From assembly GCF_000455125.1 (NCBI RefSeq), contig NZ_AUWR01000055.1, positions 62,001-126,000 on the forward strand: 64,000 bases of DNA. The letters run 5' to 3'. Positions 6,253 to 57,675 of the stretch are shown piece after piece. A model generated the notes under the pieces. The model saw only the letters and a program-made list of their open reading frames with translations. It was not told the DNA's origin and ran no database searches. How positions within the stretch are numbered: position 1 is the stretch's first letter; the number at the start of each line of letters is the position of its first letter. The DNA comes from Mycobacterium sp. UM_WGJ (lineage in GTDB: Bacteria; Actinomycetota; Actinomycetes; Mycobacteriales; Mycobacteriaceae). A program made the translations under genes and the position numbers.

Positions 6253-7081
6253 CGACATCGGGCTGGTCTCGTTGGACCCAATGCCCAGCGCCGGCAATGA
6301 CTTTCAGTTCGGCGTGCGGGATCAGCGCGGCGGCCGCTCGGGCACGGGCGATAGGCACGCCGGTATCCCGGTCGCCGTGGATGATCAGCGCCGGAGCCGG
6401 TAATGACGCCAGCTGCGCCGTGTAGTCGGTTTTCAGCCTGTTCCAGCGCATCTCGTCGTGCTGCCATTGCTCGAAAGCGGCAAAACCGGGATGCTGTGCG
6501 GCAGCGATGATCTGCGCGATCAGCTCGGGAGTGCGTTGCGCTGGATCACGGATCAGCGATTTGAGGCTCCACGTCAGCGCGGCGCGGTTCGTGGCCATCC
6601 AGCGAGTGGCGAGATCCAGCGCACCGCTACGTTGCAACGCCCACGCCAGCAGGTGTCTGCCGCCGGCCAGCCGCGGCATCAGGCCGTAGCTGTCCAACAG
6701 CAGCGCCCCGGTGACCCGTTCGGGCCGGTCCAGCACGTGCCCGATTGTCAGTGCCCCGCCCAGCGACAACCCGCCGATGGCGTAGTGCTCCAGTCCGAGG
6801 GCGTCAACGAATTCCCGCACGTAGGCGACGAGCCGCTGCTGGGTCACCCGCCAGGTGGGCAGCGGGCTCTCACCGCAGCCGGGGTGATCGGGAGCGACGA
6901 CACGGAAGCCGCCGGCAGCCAGGCGTGGTCCGACCTCTCCCCAGGACAACTCGGCGCTGTCCGTACCTCCGCCGTGCAACAGCACCACGGCTCCCCCAGA
7001 CCGGAAATCGGGATTGTCGGGACGAAAGTCGAGGTAGGAGACCAGTCCGGACGGCAGTTCGACAGTTGACCGCACCGTCAC
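6206..7081 (-). CDS. Alpha/beta hydrolase
   Basis: 291 residues from a GTG whose last bases overlap the xerC stop (GTGA), implying translational coupling. It has the alpha/beta hydrolase fold: oxyanion loop VVLLHGGG, nucleophile elbow GGLSLGG, acid region HGDRDTGVP and catalytic His in [11 protein letters not shown]. It resembles meta-cleavage-product and epoxide-type hydrolases, but the substrate cannot be assigned. In M. tuberculosis this slot holds PPE45/Rv2893, so this gene is a lineage-specific occupant. Its 3' end overlaps the M23 gene by 47 bases. Confidence 0.85.
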
Positions 7082-7986
7082 GCCCGCGGGTGCGCCTGAT
7101 CGTGCACGGCACGCAACCGGGCGACGGTCACATGGGTGTAGAGCTGCGTGGTGGCCAGGCTGGAGTGGCCGAGCAACTCCTGCACGATCCGCAGGTCTGC
7201 CCCACCCTCCAACAGGTGCGTGGCCGCCGTGTGGCGCAGCCCGTGCGGCCCCATATCCGGCGCTCCCCCGACCGCGGCGACGGTCTGGTGCACCACGGTG
7301 CGCGCCTGGCGCGGGTCGAGGCGCCCGCCGCGGGCCCCGAGCAGCAACGCCGGGCCGGACTCCAGCGTCGCCAGCGGCGGCCTCCCCCTGGCGAGCCATG
7401 CCTGCAGTGCGTCGGCGGCGGGCTCCCCGAACGGCACCGTGCGTTGCTTGTTGCCCTTGCCCACCACCCGCACCACTCGGCGCGTACTGTCCACGTCGTC
7501 GATGTCCAGGCCGCACAGTTCGCTGACCCGCACGGCGGTGGCGTAGAGCAACTCGGCGATCAGCCTGTCCCGCAGTGCCAGCGGATCATCTTGCTGGGCA
7601 CCGGATTTGGCGGCCGTCATCGCGTCTTGCGCCTGGTCACGGCGCAGAACCGCCGGCAGCGTCCGGCGCGCCTTCGGCAGCTGCAGGCGCGCACCGGGAT
7701 CCGATGCCAGCAGCCCGCGCCGCGCCGCCCACGCGGTGAAGGTCTTGACCGTCGAGGTGCGGCGCGCCAGTGTGCTGCGCGCGGCACCGGCGCCGGCCTG
7801 CGCGGCCAGCCAACTGCGCAGCAGCGGAAGGCTCAGGCCTTCGATGCCGGCGTGCCCCTGCTCGGCGAGGAACGCGAACAGCGATCGCAGGTCACCGAGG
7901 TAGGCGCGCCGGGTGTGATCGGAACGGCCCCGCTCCAAGGCGAGGTGCTCGTCGAACTCCTCGAGAATCGCGTCCACGTCGACCAC
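7078..7986 (-). CDS. xerC: Site-specific tyrosine recombinase XerC
   Basis: 302 residues from a GTG at 7986; the in-frame sequence upstream is not Xer-like. The N-terminal SAM-like DNA-binding domain spans about 5-90. The catalytic residues are all present: Arg153 (AVRVSEL), Lys177 (GKGNK), His248 and Arg251 (HGLRH), His274 (LLGHS) and Tyr283 (TQLYTH). It resolves chromosome dimers at dif with XerD. Genomic position (Rv2894c) supports XerC rather than a phage integrase. Confidence 0.95.
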
Positions 7987-47921: not shown

Positions 47922-48476
47922 ATGGCTGTCCAGGACTTGTTTTCGCACGTACCGACGTCCACTGCCGAGGCCTGCGAGATCTTCGACGCCGCCGAGGCCG
48001 TCGACCCCGATTTCATGGTCGGCACCTGGCATGGGTCCGAGCTGACGACCGGCCACCCGCTGGATGGGCTGCTGGCGGCCACCGGTTGGTGGGGCAAGCA
48101 GTTCATCGATGCCGAGACGGTCCATCCGCTGTTGTTCCCCACCCGCGACGGGGCCGCACTGTGGGCGTTCAACCCGGTGCTGGCGTTCAGCGTTCTGGGA
48201 CTCGCCACGAAGCTGCCGGCCCTGAAGAACCGCTCATTCCTCGGTCAGATCAACGCGTTGCAGCCGCTGCTGCGGACCCGTTCGCCCCGGGCTCGGCTCC
48301 GCACCACCCGGTTCCGCGGAGTCGACAGCGCCACGATGCTCTACGACCAAGCACCGGTCAACGATGTATTCCGCCGGCTCTCTGATGACGCGGTGATCGG
48401 CGCGATGGACCTGCGGGGCTCGCCGCGGCCCTACTTCTTCGTGTTGCGCCGCGACGACTCGCTCAAATTGGTCTAA
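47922..48476 (+). CDS. DUF4334 / GXWXG domain protein
   Basis: 184 residues. The GXWXG domain shows VGTWHGSEL near residue 36 and ATGWWGKQF, and the C-terminal DUF4334 region has FFVLRRDDSLKL. The function of the family is unknown; it may bind lipids or polyketides. It is convergent with the carboxyltransferase gene, overlapping it by 4 bases, and is preceded by a palindrome. Confidence 0.82.
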   Translation: MAVQDLFSHVPTSTAEACEIFDAAEAVDPDFMVGTWHGSELTTGHPLDGLLAATGWWGKQFIDAETVHPLLFPTRDGAALWAFNPVLAFSVLGLATKLPALKNRSFLGQINALQPLLRTRSPRARLRTTRFRGVDSATMLYDQAPVNDVFRRLSDDAVIGAMDLRGSPRPYFFVLRRDDSLKLV

Positions 48477-50458
48477 GCACGGGCGATTTCGCCGGCGTCG
48501 TGCCACGCATTGCGCTCCGCGTTGAACGCGGCTACCTGTTGGTCGCGGAATCCGGCGATGCTCTCGGTGTTGTCGGCCAGAAATCGGCGGTAGTCCGCCA
48601 GTGCGAACTCACCGTCGGCGATCTCTACCCGGCCACGCCCGGCCGCCATGTCGGCGCGCAACTCCAGCAGCTCCTCGGCCCGCACCGGGTAGAAGCTGAT
48701 GCGGTCGAAGTAGCGCAGCAGCCAAGGGGTTTCGGGATCGAACAGCCCTGCCGTGGCGTGCCGGTGGTTCCACACCTGGGTGGTGCGTCCGACGAACTGG
48801 TAACCGCCGGGCCCCTCGATACCGTAGATACACAGGTAGGCGCCGCCGATCCCGACGGCGTTCTCCGGGGTCCAGGTGCGGGCGGGGTTGTACTTGGTGG
48901 TCACCAGCCGGTGTCTGGGATCCAGCGGGGTAGCCACCGGCGCTCCGAGGTAGATGTCGCCCAGACCCAGCACCAGATACTGCGCGTCGAACACGATGTC
49001 GTGCACCTGCGCGAGGTCATCGAGACCGTTGATACGCCGGATGAACTCGATGTTGGACGGGCACCACGGCGCGTCGGGCCGAACGCCGTACATGTAGCGG
49101 CGAATGGCCTCGTGGGTCGCGGGGTCGTCCCAACTGAGCGGCAGTCGCACCGAGCGGCTCGGCACCACCAGTTCCTCGCAGGGCGGCAGCGCATCGTCGA
49201 TGGCGGCGACCTCGTCGATCACCTCGGCGCACGAGAACCGCTCTAGGTCGAATTGGATCTGCAGTGATCGCACCCCGGGCGTCAGTTCGGCCAGCCCTGG
49301 CAGCCCCCGTTGGCGGAGCTGCTCGTAGAGCACCTGTACCCGCGCCCGCAACGCCAAATCCAGGGTCATCGGCCCGTATTCCAGCAGAACTCCACTGTCG
49401 CCGGCGCGGCGTAACGTAACCGCCGTGCCGTCGCGCCCGGTGTAGCGCTGCAGCACTCCGTCGTCGCCGTCGCCGGAGCGGGAGACCACGACCGGCAGTG
49501 CCGCACGCCGCTGCACACCCAGCGCTGCAGTCGGTGGGGCATGGTCGGCACGGATCGGCACCAGTCGCACGGTATCGCCGGGCGAGAGCTGGCCGAGTTT
49601 CCATCGGTCGCCGCCTACCACCGTCACCGGACAGACGAACCCGCCCAGGCTGGGCCCGTCGGGGCCGAGCAGGATCGGGGTATCACCGGTGAAGTCCAAT
49701 GCCCCGATGCTGTAGGCGGTGTCATGAATGTTGGACGGGTGCAGTCCGGCGTCCCCGCCGTCGGTACGGGCCCACCGTGGCTTCGGCCCGACAAGCCGCA
49801 CGCCGGTGCGGTCGGAGTTGAAGTGCACGGTGTAGTCGGTGGTGGTCAGAGTGGCCATGTCGGCGCGGGTCATGAACTCCGGCGCGGCGTGCGGTCCTTC
49901 GGTCACCGCGAGTTGCCAGTGCCGCCCGATGCTGGGCTGCATCTGACTGGGCGCACGGGTGAGTTTCGGTGGGGCACCGCCTCGGCCGACGGCGCTGAGG
50001 CGATCCGATTCACGCAGCGCCCGGCCGTGGTGGCCGCCGAACACACCTTGGGTGAAGGTCGCTGCGCTGCCGAGGAATTCCGGCGCGGTGATGCCGCCCT
50101 CGACCAAGACGTAGCAGCGCATCCCAGGCCCGGGAATAACCCCGATCTCAAGCAGGCCACCAGCGGGTATCCGAAGTGACTGCCAAGGCGGAACCAGGAC
50201 ACCGTCCAGCCTGACCGGCACCGCGGCACCGGTGACGCACACCCAGGCCGGGTTCGAAAAACGCAGCGCAGGGCCGGCTTTGGTGCATTCCAAACCGGCC
50301 GCACCTTCGGGGTTGCCCAAAACCTGGTTGCCGATCCGAAACGACAGGTCGTCCATCGGACCGGACGGCGGCACCCCGACATGCCAGTAGCCGACGCGAC
50401 CGGGCCAGTCCTGCACCGTGGTGAACATGCCCGGGGAGATCACCTCGATGCCGATCAT
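48473..50458 (-). CDS. Urea/guanidine carboxylase-like carboxyltransferase half (AHS2-AHS1) without biotin carboxylase or biotin carrier
   Basis: 661 residues from the ATG overlapping the UAAP2 stop (ATGA). Residues 1 to about 310 are the AHS2 (KipA-like) domain starting MIGIEVISPGMFTTVQDWPG. About 335-570 is the AHS1 (KipI-like) domain with LLEYGPMTLDLALRARVQVL and GIGGAYLCIYGIEGPGGYQF. The C-terminal region to 661 matches the linker before the biotin carrier in urea carboxylase (IAGFRDQQVAAFNAERNAW). The carrier with its AMKM motif is absent, and so is the N-terminal biotin carboxylase. The window's other biotin enzyme is pyc. Function: probably a biotin-independent or trans-acting carboxyltransferase; inference. 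Confidence 0.86.
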   Translation of the reverse strand: MIGIEVISPGMFTTVQDWPGRVGYWHVGVPPSGPMDDLSFRIGNQVLGNPEGAAGLECTKAGPALRFSNPAWVCVTGAAVPVRLDGVLVPPWQSLRIPAGGLLEIGVIPGPGMRCYVLVEGGITAPEFLGSAATFTQGVFGGHHGRALRESDRLSAVGRGGAPPKLTRAPSQMQPSIGRHWQLAVTEGPHAAPEFMTRADMATLTTTDYTVHFNSDRTGVRLVGPKPRWARTDGGDAGLHPSNIHDTAYSIGALDFTGDTPILLGPDGPSLGGFVCPVTVVGGDRWKLGQLSPGDTVRLVPIRADHAPPTAALGVQRRAALPVVVSRSGDGDDGVLQRYTGRDGTAVTLRRAGDSGVLLEYGPMTLDLALRARVQVLYEQLRQRGLPGLAELTPGVRSLQIQFDLERFSCAEVIDEVAAIDDALPPCEELVVPSRSVRLPLSWDDPATHEAIRRYMYGVRPDAPWCPSNIEFIRRINGLDDLAQVHDIVFDAQYLVLGLGDIYLGAPVATPLDPRHRLVTTKYNPARTWTPENAVGIGGAYLCIYGIEGPGGYQFVGRTTQVWNHRHATAGLFDPETPWLLRYFDRISFYPVRAEELLELRADMAAGRGRVEIADGEFALADYRRFLADNTESIAGFRDQQVAAFNAERNAWHDAGEIARA

Positions 50459-51072
50459 GGTCGGCTGATCACCATCCGCACCGGCGTTGGGTCGAAGCCG
50501 TTGCACGGGTTGTTGATCTGCGGGCAGTTCGACACCAGGACCAGAGTGTCGGTCTCCGCGCGCAGAGTCAGACTCTTGCCCGGGGCCGAGAGGCCGTCGA
50601 CGATACCCAGCGTGCCGTCGGCTTCCACGGGCACGTTCATGAACCAGTTGATGTTGGAGACGATGTCGCGTTTGTCCAGACCCCACCGGGCCCCCTCGGC
50701 GAGGAAGTTCTCCACGCAGGCGTGCTGGTGGGCCGTGTGGTGCCCGTAGCGCAGCGTGTTGGATTCCTGCGAGCAGGCCCCGGCAATGGTGTCGTGGTTG
50801 CCGACGTCGTCGGCGATGACGGTCATCAGGGCGGCGCCATCGGCGCTGCGCAGCACCGAGCCGGTGCTCAAGAAGATGTTGCGCTGGGCGAGCACCGTGG
50901 CCTGGGCGCTGTATCGGCGAGCGTGATCGGCGGCGTCGTAGAGCAGGCAGTCCACCGCCTGGTTGCCGTGCAGATCGATGATCTGCAGCAGATCGCCGGC
51001 ACGCACCACCGCCGACCAAGGCGACCGTGCCGCCACCACCGCGTCGGAGATGACGTGCGATGGATTCGTCAT
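50455..51072 (-). CDS. DUF1989 urea-amidolyase-associated protein, UAAP2/CgdB-like
   Basis: 205 residues from the ATG that overlaps the UAAP1 stop (ATGA). The DUF1989 features are VVRAGDLLQIIDLHGNQAVD, DVGNHDTIAGACS and a conserved Cys in HACVENFLAE. Homologues (CgdB) form a two-protein nickel-dependent carboxyguanidine deiminase with UAAP1/CgdA. The pair is next to a carboxyltransferase gene, as in guanidine-carboxylase clusters. Substrate here is inferred. Confidence 0.88.
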   Translation of the reverse strand: MTNPSHVISDAVVAARSPWSAVVRAGDLLQIIDLHGNQAVDCLLYDAADHARRYSAQATVLAQRNIFLSTGSVLRSADGAALMTVIADDVGNHDTIAGACSQESNTLRYGHHTAHQHACVENFLAEGARWGLDKRDIVSNINWFMNVPVEADGTLGIVDGLSAPGKSLTLRAETDTLVLVSNCPQINNPCNGFDPTPVRMVISRP

Positions 51073-51827
51073 GAGCACTCCCCCGATGCGGCGACCCAGG
51101 CCGCCTCCGTGTTCTGCACCGCGCGAAGGTATTCCGGATCCCGATTGGTCAGTTCGGCCAGCTGTTCGCCGGCCCGCCAGCCAAGGACGTCCAATGCCGT
51201 TGCAGGCGGGTCGGGGTCCAGCGGGTGCGCGGCATTGGCGACCACCAGCACCACCGGAAGGTGGATCAGCAGGTCGACCGCCGCGCCGGGTCCCGCGGAT
51301 CCGGTGAATTCCAGTGCCCCGCTGACGGGGTCGACACGGACTCCGCGGAACAGCGACACCGACGGTGCCACGTCGCGACTGCCCAGGCCGTGCTTGATCG
51401 CGCCCAGCAGCAGCAGTTGCCGCCCGGTGGCGTCCGGACCGCAGAGCAGGTCGTGGTGCCCCGAGGAGTCGGCGACGACGGTGGCCAGCACGCGCCCCTG
51501 ATCGGACAACAGCGGATGACCGACTCCGAGGTAGGCCTGCCACGGCACCTTCATGGTGTCGGCGACATTGAGCCGTTCCCAGGGTGCCTCAGCGCGGTAC
51601 AGCAGCAGATTCGCGCAGGCGCCACCCTCGACGTCGGTCATCCGAACCCGGGTGCCGCGAGCCAGCACCTTGGTGGCGTAGCCGTTGGCCGGGATGGACT
51701 CGGCCCAGATCATCGACGCCGCGTCGACGCCTTCCGGGGCCGCCGGGATGTGCATCGACGCGTGCTGCGCCTGAGCGCGCGCATGCCGGCGTGCGCCGTC
51801 GGTGGAATCGGTGCGCGGGTTGTCCAT
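51069..51827 (-). CDS. DUF1989 urea-amidolyase-associated protein, UAAP1/CgdA-like
   Basis: 252 residues, first gene of the minus-strand unit, divergent from the TetR gene. It has the DUF1989 pattern with VRMTDVEGGACANLLLYRAE, SSGHHDLLCGPD and NAAHPLDPDP. The Gly/His cluster fits the carboxyguanidine-deiminase partner CgdA. The two overlapping genes downstream suggest a single operon. Confidence 0.88.
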   Translation of the reverse strand: MDNPRTDSTDGARRHARAQAQHASMHIPAAPEGVDAASMIWAESIPANGYATKVLARGTRVRMTDVEGGACANLLLYRAEAPWERLNVADTMKVPWQAYLGVGHPLLSDQGRVLATVVADSSGHHDLLCGPDATGRQLLLLGAIKHGLGSRDVAPSVSLFRGVRVDPVSGALEFTGSAGPGAAVDLLIHLPVVLVVANAAHPLDPDPPATALDVLGWRAGEQLAELTNRDPEYLRAVQNTEAAWVAASGECS

Positions 51828-51849
51828 GACCAGGAAGCTAACACATTTC

Positions 51850-51863
51850 CTATCATTTGATAG
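51850..51863. promoter_or_regulatory. Palindrome CTATCA-TT-TGATAG between TetR and UAAP1
   Basis: A perfect 14-base palindrome in the 79-base divergent region. A half site TGATAG is repeated at 51891-51896. Likely operator for the adjacent TetR regulator controlling both directions; the binding is inference. Confidence 0.6.
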
Positions 51864-51906
51864 TTTTTAGCGAGCCCAGGCCGCGGCGCGTGATAGGCAG
51901 TAAGGC

Positions 51907-52566
51907 GTGCAGAGCGATCGACGAGGACGTCCCCGGCTGGTGGCGTCCAGCAGGCCGGGCAGCAGCGCGCGCGATGAGATCCTCGACGCCGCGGCGGAGC
52001 TGTTCACCACCGTCGGCTACGCCGCCACCTCGACCCGGCGCATCGCCGAGAACGTCGGCATTCGGCAGGCCTCGCTGTATCACCACTTCGCCGCCAAGGA
52101 CGACATCCTCGACGCCCTACTGGCCGACACCGTCGAAACCTCCGTACAGCTGGCCGCCGAGCTGCTGGCTGAGGCAGGACCGAGCGCTCCCCGGCTGCAC
52201 GCGCTCGTCGTCGCCGATACCGCGCAATTGTGCGGCGGTACCTGGAATCTGGGCACGCTGTATCTGCTTCCAGAACTTCGTCTCGAGCGCTTCGCCCGCT
52301 TCCGCCGGCGCCGTGGCGAGTTACGCAGCCACTATCGAGAGCTGTCGCGCGCGGTGATCGCCGACCATGACGGTCCCGCGAGCGCCGACGATGTGCCGTT
52401 CCGGTTGGTGGAGACGGTGATCAACCGGCGCTCCGACGACGGCTCCTGCCCGCCGGATTATCCGTGGACCATAGCCGAAGCGGCGCTACGGGTATTGGGC
52501 TGCGGGAGTGGCTTCGCCCGGATGCGCAAGACGACCGATCAGCGCTTGGGTTGGCAGCCGCGGTAG
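51907..52566 (+). CDS. TetR family transcriptional regulator
   Basis: 219 residues from a GTG at 51907. The N-terminal TetR HTH is clear: ARDEILDAAAELFTTVGYAA followed by TSTRRIAENVGIRQASLYHH. The C-terminal ligand-binding part carries no recognised motif. It is divergent from the DUF1989-carboxyltransferase operon, so it probably controls it; the ligand may be an early substrate such as a urea or guanidine derivative. Inference. Confidence 0.88.
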   Translation: MQSDRRGRPRLVASSRPGSSARDEILDAAAELFTTVGYAATSTRRIAENVGIRQASLYHHFAAKDDILDALLADTVETSVQLAAELLAEAGPSAPRLHALVVADTAQLCGGTWNLGTLYLLPELRLERFARFRRRRGELRSHYRELSRAVIADHDGPASADDVPFRLVETVINRRSDDGSCPPDYPWTIAEAALRVLGCGSGFARMRKTTDQRLGWQPR

Positions 52567-53120: not shown

Positions 53121-53675
53121 CTACTCGAGCTCGGCCAGCTCCAGGCGGGTGTCGCCGTACCGGCGCGAGGGCCAGGCTTCCCAGCCCTGCGGCCACCCCA
53201 CCGCCGGACTGGAGGTGGCCCGTTCGATCACCACGACGGTGCCCGGGCCCGCCCAACCCCCGGCGGTCAACAATCCCGGCAGCGCGTCGATCGCGGCGGC
53301 ATCGACCTCGTAGGGTGGATCGGCCAGCACCAGATCCACTGGAGTTTCGGTTCCCCCGGCCAGCACTGCGGCCACCGTGCCGCGGCGCAATACGGCACCG
53401 GCCAGCCCCAACGCGGCGATATTGGCGGCCAGCACCTCTGCGGCGCGACGGTCCGATTCGACGAACAGTGCCGACGCGGCGCCGCGAGACAACGCTTCCA
53501 AGCCGAGCGCCCCCGACCCCGCATACAGGTCCAACACCGACATTCCGGTCAGGTCCATTCGGGAATCGAGCACATTGAACAGCGCCTCGCGCACCCGATC
53601 TGTGGTTGGCCGGGTGCGGCGCGGCGGCACGGCGAGGCGTCGCCCCCCGGCTGCGCCCCCGACGATGCGAGTCAG
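53121..53675 (-). CDS. rsmD: 16S rRNA (guanine-N2)-methyltransferase RsmD, apparent CTG start
   Basis: 184 residues if translation starts at a CTG at 53675-53673. The codons after it read [17 protein letters not shown], the conserved RsmD N-terminus. The nearest ATG/GTG start in frame is GTG 53630, which removes this conserved part. The CTG overlaps the pyc TGA (CTGA). The SAM site [14 protein letters not shown] and the catalytic ADPPYEVD are present. It methylates G966 of 16S rRNA. Length then matches the 188-residue M. tuberculosis protein. Confidence 0.87.
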
Positions 53676-56600
53676 CTCAGCACCACCAGCAGGTCTCCGC
53701 CTTCGACCTGTGCGGTCTCGGCAACAGCCACCCGCGCGACGGTGCCGTCGGCCGGCGCGGTGATGGCCGCCTCCATCTTCATCGCCTCGATGGTGGCCAG
53801 GGTCTGTCCGGCGGTGACCTGCTCTCCCTCGGCGACTCCGATGGTGACCACACCGGCAAACGGTGCCGCGACATGGCCCGGTTTGGTTCTGTCGGCCTTT
53901 TCGGCGACCGGTACTTCGCTGGCGATGCTGCGGTCACGCACTTCGACCGGCCGCAGCTGACCGTTGATGATGCACATCACGGTCCGCATGCCGCGTTCGT
54001 CCGGCTCGGAGATGGCCTCGAGCCCGATCAGCAGCTCCACCCCGCGCTCCAGCTTGACCCGATGCTCCTCGCCCTGACGCAGCCCGTAGAAGAACTGGTT
54101 GGCCGACAACCGCGAGATGTCGCCATAGAGTTCCCGATGCGACTCGAATTCCTTTGTGGGGCCAGGGAACAGCAGGTGGTTAAGGCGAGCCTGGCGTTGC
54201 GGTCCAGATTTTGCCAACACCGCCTCGTCATCGGCCGAGAGCTGCTGCATCTCCCGTGCCGGGCCGCGACCCTCCAGCGCCTTGGTCCGCAACGGCTCCG
54301 GCCAGCCACCCGCCGGGTCGCCCAGCTCACCGCGCAGGAAGCCGATCACCGAGTCCGGTATGTCGACTCGGGACGGGTCGGCGGCGAACTCGTCGGCGCT
54401 CACGCCGGCACCGACCAGGGCCAGCGCGAGATCGCCGACCACCTTCGAGCTCGGAGTCACCTTGATCAGCCGACCGAGTACGGCATCGGCGGCGGCATAG
54501 TTGTTCTCCACGTCCTCGAACCGGTCCGCCAACCCCAGCGCCTTGGCCTGCTGGTGCAGGTTGGACAGCTGGCCACCGGGAATCTCGTGGCGGTATACCC
54601 GCCCTGTCGGCGCTGCCAGCCCGGATTCGAACGGCGCGTAAACCTTTCGCAGTGCCTCCCAGTACGGCTCCAGGTCGCCCACCGCGTCCAGCGAGATCCC
54701 GGTGTCGTAGTCGGTCTGGGCCGCCGCGGCGATGATCGAGCTGAGCGCCGGTTGACTGGTGGTGCCCGCCATGGGCGCTGCCGCGCCGTCGACGGCGTCC
54801 GCCCCGGCCTGCCAGGCAGCGACATAGCTGGCCAGCTGACCACCCGCGGTGTCGTGCGTGTGGACATGGATGGGCAGGTCGAAGCGACTGCGCAGTGCGC
54901 TCACCAACGTCGTTGCCGCGGCAGGGCGCAGCAGCCCCGCCATGTCCTTGATCGCCAGCACATGGGCACCGGCGTTCACGACCTGCTCGGCGAGCCGCAG
55001 GTAGTAATCCAGCGTGTAGAGCGTTTCGCTCGGACTGCTCAGATCGCCGGTGTAGCACATGGCGACTTCGGCTACCGCACTGCCGGTTTCGCGCACCGCA
55101 TCAATGGCCGGAAGCATCGAGTCCACGTTGTTGAGCGCATCGAAGATCCGAAAAATGTCAATACCGGTCTCGGTGGCCTCCTGGACGAACGCCGAGGTCA
55201 CCAACTCCGGATACGGGGTATACCCGACTGTGTTGCGCCCGCGCAGCAGCATCTGCAAGCAGATGTTGGGCAGCGTCTCGCGCAGCGCGGCCAGTCGCTC
55301 CCAGGGGTCTTCCTTCAGAAACCGCAGCGCCACATCGTAAGTCGCGCCGCCCCAGCATTCGACCGACAGCAGTTGCGACATGGTGTGGGCCACGTACGGC
55401 GCCACCCTGACCAACCCGCTGGTGCGCACCCGGGTGGCCAACAGCGACTGGTGGGCGTCCCGGAAGGTGGTGTCGGTGACCCCCACGGCGCGCGATTCCC
55501 GCAGCCAGCGGGCAAACCCTTCTGGCCCCAGCTCGACCAGCCGTTGCTTGGAACCCGCCGGCGGCGGCGCCGACAGGTCCAGCTCGGGCAGCTTGTCTCG
55601 CGGGTACACCGCCGACCGCCGGGTGCCGTGCGGACTGTTGACGGTGACATCCGCCAGGTAATTCAAGATCTTGGTGCCGCGGTCGGCCGACGAACGCGCG
55701 GTCAGCAGCTGCGGGCGCTCGTCGATGAACGAGGTCGTGATGCGCCCGGCGGAGAAGTCCGGGTCATCGAGCACGGCCTGCAGGAACGGGATGTTGGTGG
55801 CGACCCCACGGATCCGGAATTCCGCGATCGCCCGGCGCGCCCGCTTCACCGCGGTGGGGAAATCCTTGCCGCGACAGGTCAGCTTGACCAGCATCGAGTC
55901 GAAGTGGGCGCTGATCTCCGCGCCCAGGTTCGTGCCGCCATCCAGCCGGATCCCCGCCCCGCCAGGGCTGCGGTAAGCGCTGATCCGTCCGGTGTCGGGC
56001 CGGAATCCGTTGGCCGGGTCCTCGGTGGTGATCCGGCATTGCAGCGCAGCGCCGCGCAGCGTGATCGAATCCTGCGAGAGGCCCAGGTCCGCCAGCCACT
56101 CACCGGCGGCGATCCGCAGCTGCGACGACACCAGGTCGACGTCGGTGATCTCCTCGGTGACGGTGTGCTCCACCTGGATGCGCGGATTCATCTCGATGAA
56201 CACGTGGTGGCCGCGCTCGTCGACCAGAAACTCCACGGTGCCCGCGCAGGTGTAGCCGATATGGCTCGCGAATGCCACGGCGTCCGCACAGATCTTCTCG
56301 CGCAGAGCCGGATCGAGATTCGGTGCCGGCGCCAACTCGACGACTTTCTGATGCCGGCGCTGCACACTGCAGTCACGCTCGTAGAGGTGAATCACGTTGC
56401 CGTGGTTATCGGCCAGGATCTGCACCTCGATGTGGCGCGGGTTGAGTACCGCCTGCTCGAGGTAGACGTGTGGATCGCCGAACGCCGAATCCGCTTCCCG
56501 GCTGGCCGCTTCCACCGCGTCGGCCAGCCCGTCGATGTCGGCGACCCGGCGCATCCCGCGCCCACCGCCACCGGCGACCGCCTTGACGAACAGCGGGAAC

Positions 56601-57055
56601 GTCATGTCCTGGGCTGCGGCGAGCAGTTCCTCCACCGAGGACGACGGGGCCGATGACGCCAGCACAGGCAGGCCCGCCTCCCGCGCGGCCGCCACCGCGC
56701 GAGACTTGTTGCCGGCCAGGGCCAGCACCGCCGCGCTGGGACCGACGAAGGTGATGCCCGCAGCCGCACAGGCCTGCGCCAGTTGAGGATTCTCCGAAAG
56801 AAAACCGTAGCCGGGGTAAACGGCGTCGGCTCCGCATCGCACTGCGGTGCCGACGATCTCGTCGACTGACAGGTACGCGCGTACCGGATGGCCCTCTTCG
56901 CCGATCTGGTAGGACTCGTCCGCCTTGAGCCGGTGCAGCGAGTTGCGATCCTCGTACGGGTAGACCGCCACTGTGCCGACCCCGAGTTCCACAGCGGCCC
57001 GGAACGCGCGGACAGCGATCTCCCCGCGGTTGGCCACCAGCACTTTGGAGATCAC
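53672..57055 (-). CDS. pyc: Pyruvate carboxylase
   Basis: 1127 residues from a GTG at 57055 ([19 protein letters not shown]). Biotin carboxylase domain first, with the ATP-grasp region and [15 protein letters not shown]. The carboxyltransferase TIM barrel follows ([17 protein letters not shown]). The C-terminal biotin carrier ends with [10 protein letters not shown] (biotinyl Lys). It makes oxaloacetate from pyruvate, feeding the TCA cycle. Matches Rv2967c in length. Confidence 0.98.
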
Positions 57056-57063
57056 ATCCACCC

Positions 57064-57675
57064 CTACAGCAGCGTTATCCAGTAATCCTGAAACCGAATA
57101 AATATCAGCAGAAATAACGCGATAAACCATAACGCAGCGATGGTCCAACGCCATCGGTGCAAATGCTGCAAAGTTTTGCGTATACCACCCTGCTCAGATG
57201 CTAGGGCTGCGAATATCACTAGCAGGCACAGCGTGACCGCCCACACCACCATGCAATACGGGCACAGCGCCCCGATCCGGTACAGGCTCTGGAAGATCAG
57301 CCAGTGCACGAAGCCGGCGCCGGCCAGCGTCCCGAGCGTCAACCCGGTCCAATACCACTGCGGCAATGGCACTTTCGCGACAGCCAGGACGCCGGTGACA
57401 ACCACCACGGTGAAGGCGACGATCCCCATCAGGGGGTTGGGGAAGCCCAGCACCGACGCCTGCGGGGTGACCATCACCGATCCGCAGGACAGCACCGGGT
57501 TGAGGTTGCACGACGGTACGTAGCCGGAGTCCGTGAGCAGCTTGATCTTCTCGACGGTCAGGGTGACCGAGGCGAGCAGTCCGATGACCCCGCCGATCAG
57601 CACCGCCCAGGCCCGGGATGCCGCGACCGGCACCGCCTGGGCGGGCGATTCGACCGCCGGAGCCGTGATGGTCAC
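57064..57675 (-). CDS. Vitamin K epoxide reductase family protein (VKOR)
   Basis: 203 residues with four to five membrane segments. The redox pair CPYC sits in ALCPYCMVVW, with a second Cys pair in SCNLNPVLSCGS. Bacterial VKOR reoxidises DsbA-like thiol oxidases in the periplasm-like space. It overlaps the DsbA-like gene by 4 bases and lies next to pyc. Matches Rv2968c. Confidence 0.93.
   Translation of the reverse strand: MTITAPAVESPAQAVPVAASRAWAVLIGGVIGLLASVTLTVEKIKLLTDSGYVPSCNLNPVLSCGSVMVTPQASVLGFPNPLMGIVAFTVVVVTGVLAVAKVPLPQWYWTGLTLGTLAGAGFVHWLIFQSLYRIGALCPYCMVVWAVTLCLLVIFAALASEQGGIRKTLQHLHRWRWTIAALWFIALFLLIFIRFQDYWITLL

Follow-up and report, generated by a model that had tools for sequence, protein, structure and literature searches.

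A carboxyltransferase-only relative of guanidine carboxylase beside a DUF1989 pair in an AmtR-linked operon of Mycobacterium sp. UM_WGJ

The window analyzed here is a stretch of 64,000 nucleotides of contig NZ_AUWR01000055.1 from Mycobacterium sp. UM_WGJ, contig 55 of 116 in a genome totaling 4.47 Mb. It contains a short operon encoding the two DUF1989 subunits UAAP1 and UAAP2 and a protein of 661 amino acids (aa) related to the carboxyltransferase (CT) part of guanidine carboxylase (Table 1). A preliminary description of this DNA had reported three genes overlapping by ATGA and facing a TetR gene across a palindrome, and all of these elements were recovered at their positions. The overlaps are at the UAAP1/UAAP2 and UAAP2/CT junctions, and the TetR gene is divergent from UAAP1, with a gap of 79 bp.

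Table 1. Genes and regulatory site of the operon and its surroundings (window positions)
Feature	Position	Strand	Evidence
AmtR (TetR-family nitrogen regulator), 219 aa	51907..52566	+	5e57 match, TetR_N
AmtR box CTATCATTTGATAG	51850..51863	no strand	AmtR-UAAP1 divergent gap; CTATN6ATAG exact match
UAAP1, DUF1989 subunit, carboxyguanidine deiminase type (CgdAB pair)	51069..51827	-	TIGR03425, PF09347
UAAP2, second DUF1989 subunit	50455..51072	-	TIGR03424, PF09347
CT-only guanidine carboxylase relative, 661 aa, no biotin carboxylase or biotin carrier	48473..50458	-	TIGR02712 449-1111, PF02626 + PF02682
Complete pyruvate carboxylase	53672..57154	- (operon's strand), upstream of operon	Biotin carboxylase domain + biotinylation motif

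The 661-aa protein matches the urea/guanidine carboxylase family TIGR02712 with 937.5 bits (cut-off 1303.85), and since the match spans only positions 449-1111 of 1201, the biotin carboxylase (BC) part and the biotin carrier (BCCP) end are absent. No BC domain lies in the CT gene or is fused to it, the match beginning at 449, and no BCCP with a biotinyl Lys is present in the protein, the match stopping at 1111. Pfam detected CT_A_B at residues 27-300 and CT_C_D at 348-569, with no further match at an expectation value (E) of 0.001; the CT domains A/B and C/D of guanidine carboxylase (PF02626 and PF02682) are thus present. The nearest named relative is a protein of Mycolicibacter heraklionensis, with 94% identity. 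Both DUF1989 subunits, of the CgdAB type, exceed their own NCBIfam cut-offs: UAAP1 scores 224.1 bits against TIGR03425 (cut-off 205.95), and UAAP2 scores 332 bits against TIGR03424 (cut-off 284.7). The structural kin of UAAP2 are trimethylamine N-oxide demethylase and the DUF1989 protein 3oru. The proposal that a CT-only relative of guanidine carboxylase lies beside a CgdAB-type pair is therefore upheld.

The same architecture is found in many other genomes. A total of 151 loci were classed by tblastn with BC, CT, BCCP, allophanate hydrolase, UAAP1, UAAP2, and AmtR as queries, and 140 loci with 138 distinct CTs were retained. The 11 loci dropped from the alignment and trees are L081 and L175, with broken frames; L085, L086, L087, and L162, truncated by the end of a contig; L073 and L084, whose frames are open but whose best tblastn piece left some of the CT uncovered; L093 and L094, which are of the Pxp type; and L101, whose DNA is identical to that of L046. 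The duplicate pairs L047/L173 and L051/L141 are still inside the counts of 140, 99, 86, and 88 given in this work. BC and BCCP are both present in 41 of the 140 loci and both absent in 99 (97 distinct), and no locus has one of them alone. The 41 full loci present at least 443 aa before the CT and at least 87 aa after it; in the 86 loci of the clade that includes the window (clade I), the protein ends within -2 to +9 aa of the end of the CT. The sole BC or BCCP matches in the CT-only stretches are the nearby pyruvate carboxylases. An assembly error, which the preliminary description had named as a possible cause of the truncation, is ruled out, because 98 other loci (96 distinct proteins) share the CT-only architecture.

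A match to the CT query with an E of 1e-100 or lower was obtained in 265 of 401 sampled genomes of the family. Among the 150 top-ranking matches listed for these 265, 148 lie in open frames no longer than 1,055 aa (counted by hand), which cannot hold the full enzyme, about 1,190-1,220 aa in length; this share is biased, as a CT-only query favours CT-only matches. Two family genomes (G831 and G840) present one TAG within the CT match. The full-length enzyme is encoded in all five proteobacterial loci inspected (L215-L218 and L220).

In a tree of 40 rows, clade I, which includes the window, Mycobacterium, Nocardia, Skermania, and others, has a support of 100/99 and is nested within the full-length enzymes at 100/98; a second CT-only clade (clade II) has a support of 81/98. 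Clade II comprises 16 loci, of which 12 are in the alignment and four (L073, L084, L085, and L087) were assigned by similarity, not by the tree. In a tree of 72 rows, three changes between the full and CT-only forms are required, at least two of them forced by the starred branches. Constraining the CT-only clades to a single group gave a log-likelihood 20.9 lower, with a probability of 0.097 in the approximately unbiased test (p-AU). Two separate losses giving the two CT-only clades are favoured by these trees, and one origin for all CT-only proteins is disfavoured. In clade II, allophanate hydrolase and UAAP2 are each found in 15 of 16 loci, and the exceptions, L085 and L087, are both cut by a contig end; in one member (L075), UAAP1, UAAP2, and allophanate hydrolase are over their cut-offs and the CT spans TIGR02712 448-1106. 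In clade I, the fetched stretch carries allophanate hydrolase in 32 of 86 loci and is without it in 54, some stretches being cut by contig ends; a Nocardia farcinica strain (L159) has a CT-only locus with allophanate hydrolase.

Lys 1605 of the Kluyveromyces lactis urea carboxylase is presented as catalytic and the likely general base in passages of PMC5770610, and Asp 1584 and Asp 1330 (K. lactis numbering) are given as criteria for guanidine carboxylases in passages of PMC11410670. Alignment to the K. lactis enzyme (3va7, 5i8i) places K522, D501, and D255 of the window protein at Lys 1605, Asp 1584, and Asp 1330, respectively. Both Lys 1605 and Asp 1584 are kept in 41/41 full-length, 86/86 clade I (84/84 distinct, window included), and 12/12 clade II proteins. 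Position 1330 is Asp in 36 and Asn in five full-length enzymes, and Asp in 86/86 clade I proteins (84 distinct). As a control for this marker, Asp 1330 is found in 35/35 full-length enzymes with a UAAP pair; one further Asp enzyme lies on a short contig, and the five Asn enzymes (L069, L070, L212, L213, and L214) have no UAAP pair on the stretch. These five are probably true urea carboxylases, from an order in which the guanidine type occurs as well. A lone CT-only relative in the same phylum (L199, 6905-9049), followed by a gene with an RpoB-like start and with no UAAP hit, has Ala, Glu, and Arg at 1330, 1584, and 1605, and its function possibly differs.

Conservation was also compared over 204 positions that are near-invariant in 26 other full-length enzymes. 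The mean share kept is 97.7% in clade I, 99.3% in 15 full-length sisters, and 90.0% in clade II, and the window protein keeps 95.6%. The retention in clade I suggests that its carboxybiotin-accepting site is probably intact.

A guanidine-I riboswitch (Rfam) above the gathering score occurs in 10 of the 16 clade II loci, or seven of the 12 aligned ones: L071, L073, L074, L075, L076, L077, L078, L083, L084, and L085, the last with its CT cut by the contig end. The match in L079 is below the gathering score (50.6 against 63 bits). No guanidine-I riboswitch was found at E 0.1 in L072, whose stretch is short or cut, L200, and L201, nor at the gathering score in L080 and L087 (short or cut stretches), in L199, or in 10 full-length loci (L053, L059, L062, L063, L065, L082, L092, L202, L203, and L215). 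The permeases of four clade II loci (L075, L077, L079, and L083) are 56-62% identical to those of five clade I loci (L049, L050, L054, L056, and L066); for L200 and L201, permease identity to clade I falls to about 30%. Because the second CT-only clade sits under guanidine-I riboswitches, the BC-less operons can be tied to guanidine, and this link is supported in clade I by the kept Asp marker. In L074, a c-di-GMP-II-GAG riboswitch match lies at 6982-7095, on the opposite strand and directly behind the allophanate hydrolase gene.

The best solved-structure match of the regulator is 5e57, 'Transcription regulator AmtR' (E 1.1e-86), with further AmtR structures next, and an AmtR box is present at the operon. 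By this match and this site, the TetR regulator of the window is AmtR. The site CTATCATTTGATAG is the sole exact match to CTATN6ATAG in the 64 kb window, for which 0.02 are expected; the AmtR box of Corynebacterium glutamicum is given as tttCTATN6AtAGat/aA in passages of PMC2723105. A relaxed box, CT[AG]TC-N4-GA[CT]AG, was designed after seeing the window site and with an M. smegmatis motif. UAAP1 was detected in 88 clade I loci (three of them duplicates) and in 35 full-length loci; the relaxed box lies no more than 2.6 kb upstream of UAAP1 in 80 of the former and is also upstream in 18 of the latter. Of its 109 matches in 1.45 Mb, 107 fall in this upstream stretch, and first-order shuffles yield 6 matches in all. 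The exact pattern is rarer, with 19/88 clade I and 2/35 full-length loci. A promoter scan found nothing.

The absence of BC and BCCP raises the question of a donor. The window genome contains four BC genes, namely that of pyruvate carboxylase and those of three BC-BCCP proteins (L088-L090) of 598-663 aa with the motif EAMKM. The genes around L088-L090, picked by script, resemble what we take, by M. tuberculosis gene order, to be the surroundings of AccA1, AccA3, and AccA2, respectively. The BC parts of these proteins are 44-51% identical to the BC of the full guanidine carboxylase and about equally far from one another. A BC of the guanidine carboxylase type elsewhere in the window genome was ruled out, as the four BC genes are of the housekeeping type by identity and motif and, for AccA1-3, by M. 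tuberculosis gene order. BC genes were found in each of 54 genomes searched. Seven CT-only genomes from the window's subclade and genus carry 4, 5, 6, 4, 5, 4, and 4 of them, 14 genomes of that genus lacking the cluster carry 4 or 5, and six of 11 clade II genomes have only two. When 29 of the best-scoring BC genes of these other genomes were compared with the reference BCs, none exceeded 49% identity to the guanidine carboxylase BC.

A search for the biotinylation motif E[AVSP]MK[MLTNAV] in the 20 kb surrounding the operon returned a single hit, in the pyruvate carboxylase; the end of that gene is about 3 kb away from the CT gene. Over 107 CT-only stretches, the motif is confined to pyruvate carboxylases, namely those of the window and of six further loci. 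These six are near relatives (four Mycolicibacter loci and two other same-genus genomes), and no other of the 107 stretches has a pyruvate carboxylase near the operon, which rules it out as a cluster partner. An adjacent BC or BCCP module, which according to the preliminary description would speak against its reading, exists then in this trivial sense only. In four genomes of one other genus of the family (G214, G021, G234, and G254), there is no allophanate hydrolase beside the CT-only gene, and a second enzyme of full-length size has allophanate hydrolase beside it; this enzyme could in principle lend its parts to the CT there. The window genome has no second enzyme of that size.

The rest of the pathway is also reduced in the window lineage. 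As the preliminary description had seen at the locus, allophanate hydrolase is missing: none is over the cut-off in the window genome (G000), where seven weaker amidase-like matches occur, and a search at E 1e-80 returned none. The genome search that it had proposed thus returned BC-BCCP genes of the housekeeping type and no allophanate hydrolase. None was found at E 1e-80 in G226, G273, G195, G148, G095, and G007 either. Urease alpha over the cut-off is absent in G000, G226, G273, G195, and G148 and present in G095 and G007. Matches to the clade I permease in the window genome have only 27-33% identity, so no close permease was found. The window's lineage is a more reduced form, and many other loci keep allophanate hydrolase and permease beside the CT. 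The median ratio of nonsynonymous to synonymous substitution rates (dN/dS) in 55 pairs from 11 loci of the window's subclade is 0.169 for CT, 0.161 for UAAP2, 0.185 for UAAP1, and 0.208 for AmtR, values by which the four genes are under purifying selection. The AmtR box is present in all 11 of these loci.

We propose that the operon may be an AmtR-controlled unit of nitrogen metabolism that attacks guanidine. The 661-aa protein would be the CT of a guanidine carboxylase after loss of the BC and BCCP domains, and we give an even chance to its carboxylating guanidine with carboxybiotin from a housekeeping BC-BCCP subunit of the AccA type. The carboxybiotin would be carried on AccA1, AccA2, or AccA3, and pyruvate carboxylase would be a less likely donor. 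UAAP1/UAAP2 would then hydrolyse carboxyguanidine to allophanate and ammonia, and in many relatives the allophanate hydrolase beside the CT would finish the breakdown. Allophanate decays to urea and CO2, and in the window genome it would probably be left to do so, because neither allophanate hydrolase nor urease nor a close permease was found there. The unit would yield one ammonia per guanidine or would detoxify guanidine formed inside the cell. We infer guanidine as the substrate in the window's own clade.

Several observations weigh against this proposal. The acyl-CoA CT partners of AccA have another fold, and docking of AccA on this CT would be new. For relatives with additional BC genes, G273 with six among them, the data are gene counts. 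No guanidine-I riboswitch reaches the gathering score in the eight clade I loci scanned (window, L047, L050, L054, L056, L057, L064, and L066), and in clade II, position 1330 is Met in ten and Ile in two proteins, although the riboswitches point to guanidine. With no allophanate hydrolase, urease, or close permease in the window lineage, either the nitrogen gain would be small or the unit would do something else. The neighbouring genes have a lower dN/dS, 0.107 for purU and 0.048 for coaD (the latter with 15 pairs from six loci), so selection on the operon is weaker, and the CT gene of L175 (M. heraklionensis strain Davo) and of L081 is split between frames.

The lower dN/dS of the two neighbours, the broken frame of L175, and the partner genes not found in the window lineage would suit a remnant that is decaying in that lineage now that BC, BCCP, allophanate hydrolase, and permease have been lost. 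We regard this as very improbable, given the median dN/dS of 0.16-0.21 for all four genes in the 11 subclade loci, the AmtR box kept in each of them, and the CT-only-size frames of 148 of the 150 best matches listed. A role of the CT other than that of a carboxylase, in which it would scaffold the DUF1989 pair or be a PxpBC-like hydrolase or ligase partner, with some other nitrogen compound as the substrate, would be in line with the PxpB/PxpC proteins, which have the CT fold and function without biotin, with the missing guanidine/urea marker residue of clade II, and with the catalytic positions of L199. However, the PxpC (NF045499) score of the window protein is 112 bits, where the cut-off is 500, and its PxpB (TIGR00370) score is 31.9, where the cut-off is 145.55; Lys 1605 and both Asp residues (1584 and 1330) are retained throughout clade I, and the genome's own Pxp-like pair has a gap, Gly, and Ile at these positions; and clade II lies under guanidine-I riboswitches, which makes such a role distinctly unlikely. 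Because of the kept carboxylase Lys and Asp and scores far under the PxpB/PxpC cut-offs, a 5-oxoprolinase-like hydrolase or ligase, one form of the biotin-independent option in the preliminary description, appears less likely, and the 5-oxoprolinase-like role was rejected as a candidate on these family scores and residues. The Pxp-like pair (L002, KipI/KipA, contig 16) is the sole other CT_A_B match in the genome; in L093 (5948-9256) and L094 (16301-18999), a Pxp-type CT pair has a BC match near it on the same strand and looks like another kind of split carboxylase.

Both options of the preliminary description, biotin parts acting in trans and a biotin-free reaction, otherwise stand. In a biotin- and ATP-independent reaction, the CT would bind guanidine and CO2 directly, with the conserved Lys as base, and CgdAB (and allophanate hydrolase where present) would pull the unfavourable step, CO2 being a recycled cofactor. 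BC and BCCP were lost jointly and cleanly, neither the surroundings of the CT-only genes nor, in the case of the window, the genome yielded a dedicated donor, and the catalytic Lys is kept in every aligned protein of both clades; positions 370, 376, 391, and 573 are altered in both CT-only clades, as expected from loss of a shared contact. On the other hand, the near-invariant positions kept in clade I exceed what would be expected for an unused biotin pocket, BC genes occur in each genome searched, and we know of no precedent for an unactivated carboxylation of guanidine. We consider this reaction rather unlikely. That Actinobacteria evolved, possibly twice, a guanidine carboxylation without biotin and ATP, driven by DUF1989 hydrolysis, is an unlikely form of the same idea. 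The proposal of a CT served in trans by an AccA-type subunit is retained here as the working interpretation.

Beyond the preliminary description, the sequence comparisons identify the TetR regulator as AmtR, reveal a widespread truncation, and favour two CT-only clades. The CT-only form is widespread in Mycobacterium, Nocardia, and relatives, and the second clade is mostly wired to guanidine riboswitches. Either unrelated carboxylases would then share their biotin carriers, or the step could run without biotin. No description of a BC-less urea or guanidine carboxylase was found in the literature searched, whose coverage was partial and gives weak evidence of absence.

A similar operon in the literature is the M. 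smegmatis cluster msmeg_2184-2189, which passages of PMC4222082, PMC3662644, and PMC4617892 describe as a target of GlnR and AmtR that is induced when cells starve for nitrogen. It includes a permease, two unknown frames, a 'urea carboxylase', and an amidase ('allophanate hydrolase'), and msmeg_2187 is named urea amidolyase or urea carboxylase (passages of PMC4222082). The window operon has neither permease nor amidase; domain loss and guanidine are not raised in those passages, and 'guanidin' occurs 0 times in PMC4222082. The same source lists N. farcinica in its Table 3 and reports that M. smegmatis failed to grow on urea. If msmeg_2187 is of the CT-only kind, the compound on which the M. 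smegmatis nitrogen regulon acts would be guanidine and not urea, in agreement with that reported lack of growth.

Compared with known enzymes, urea carboxylase unites BC, BCCP, and CT in one protein (passages of PMC5770610), and the guanidine carboxylase pathway starts with a biotin-containing, ATP-dependent carboxylase (passages of PMC11410670). The system of guanidine carboxylase (Gca; TIGR02712, Asp 1330), CgdAB, and AtzF shares with the window the CT domain, the catalytic Lys, both marker Asp residues, and an operon with the DUF1989 pair, and with many relatives of the window also allophanate hydrolase and permease. The window differs in the absence of BC and BCCP, and its copy also lacks allophanate hydrolase and permease. 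PxpB/PxpC (KipI/KipA) have the CT fold in common with the window protein, which differs from them in falling far below their family cut-offs and in keeping the carboxylase Lys and Asp. In acyl-CoA carboxylases, a shared AccA BC-BCCP subunit serves several transferase partners. They are a model for the supply of BC-BCCP in trans, with the difference that their transferase half has another fold.

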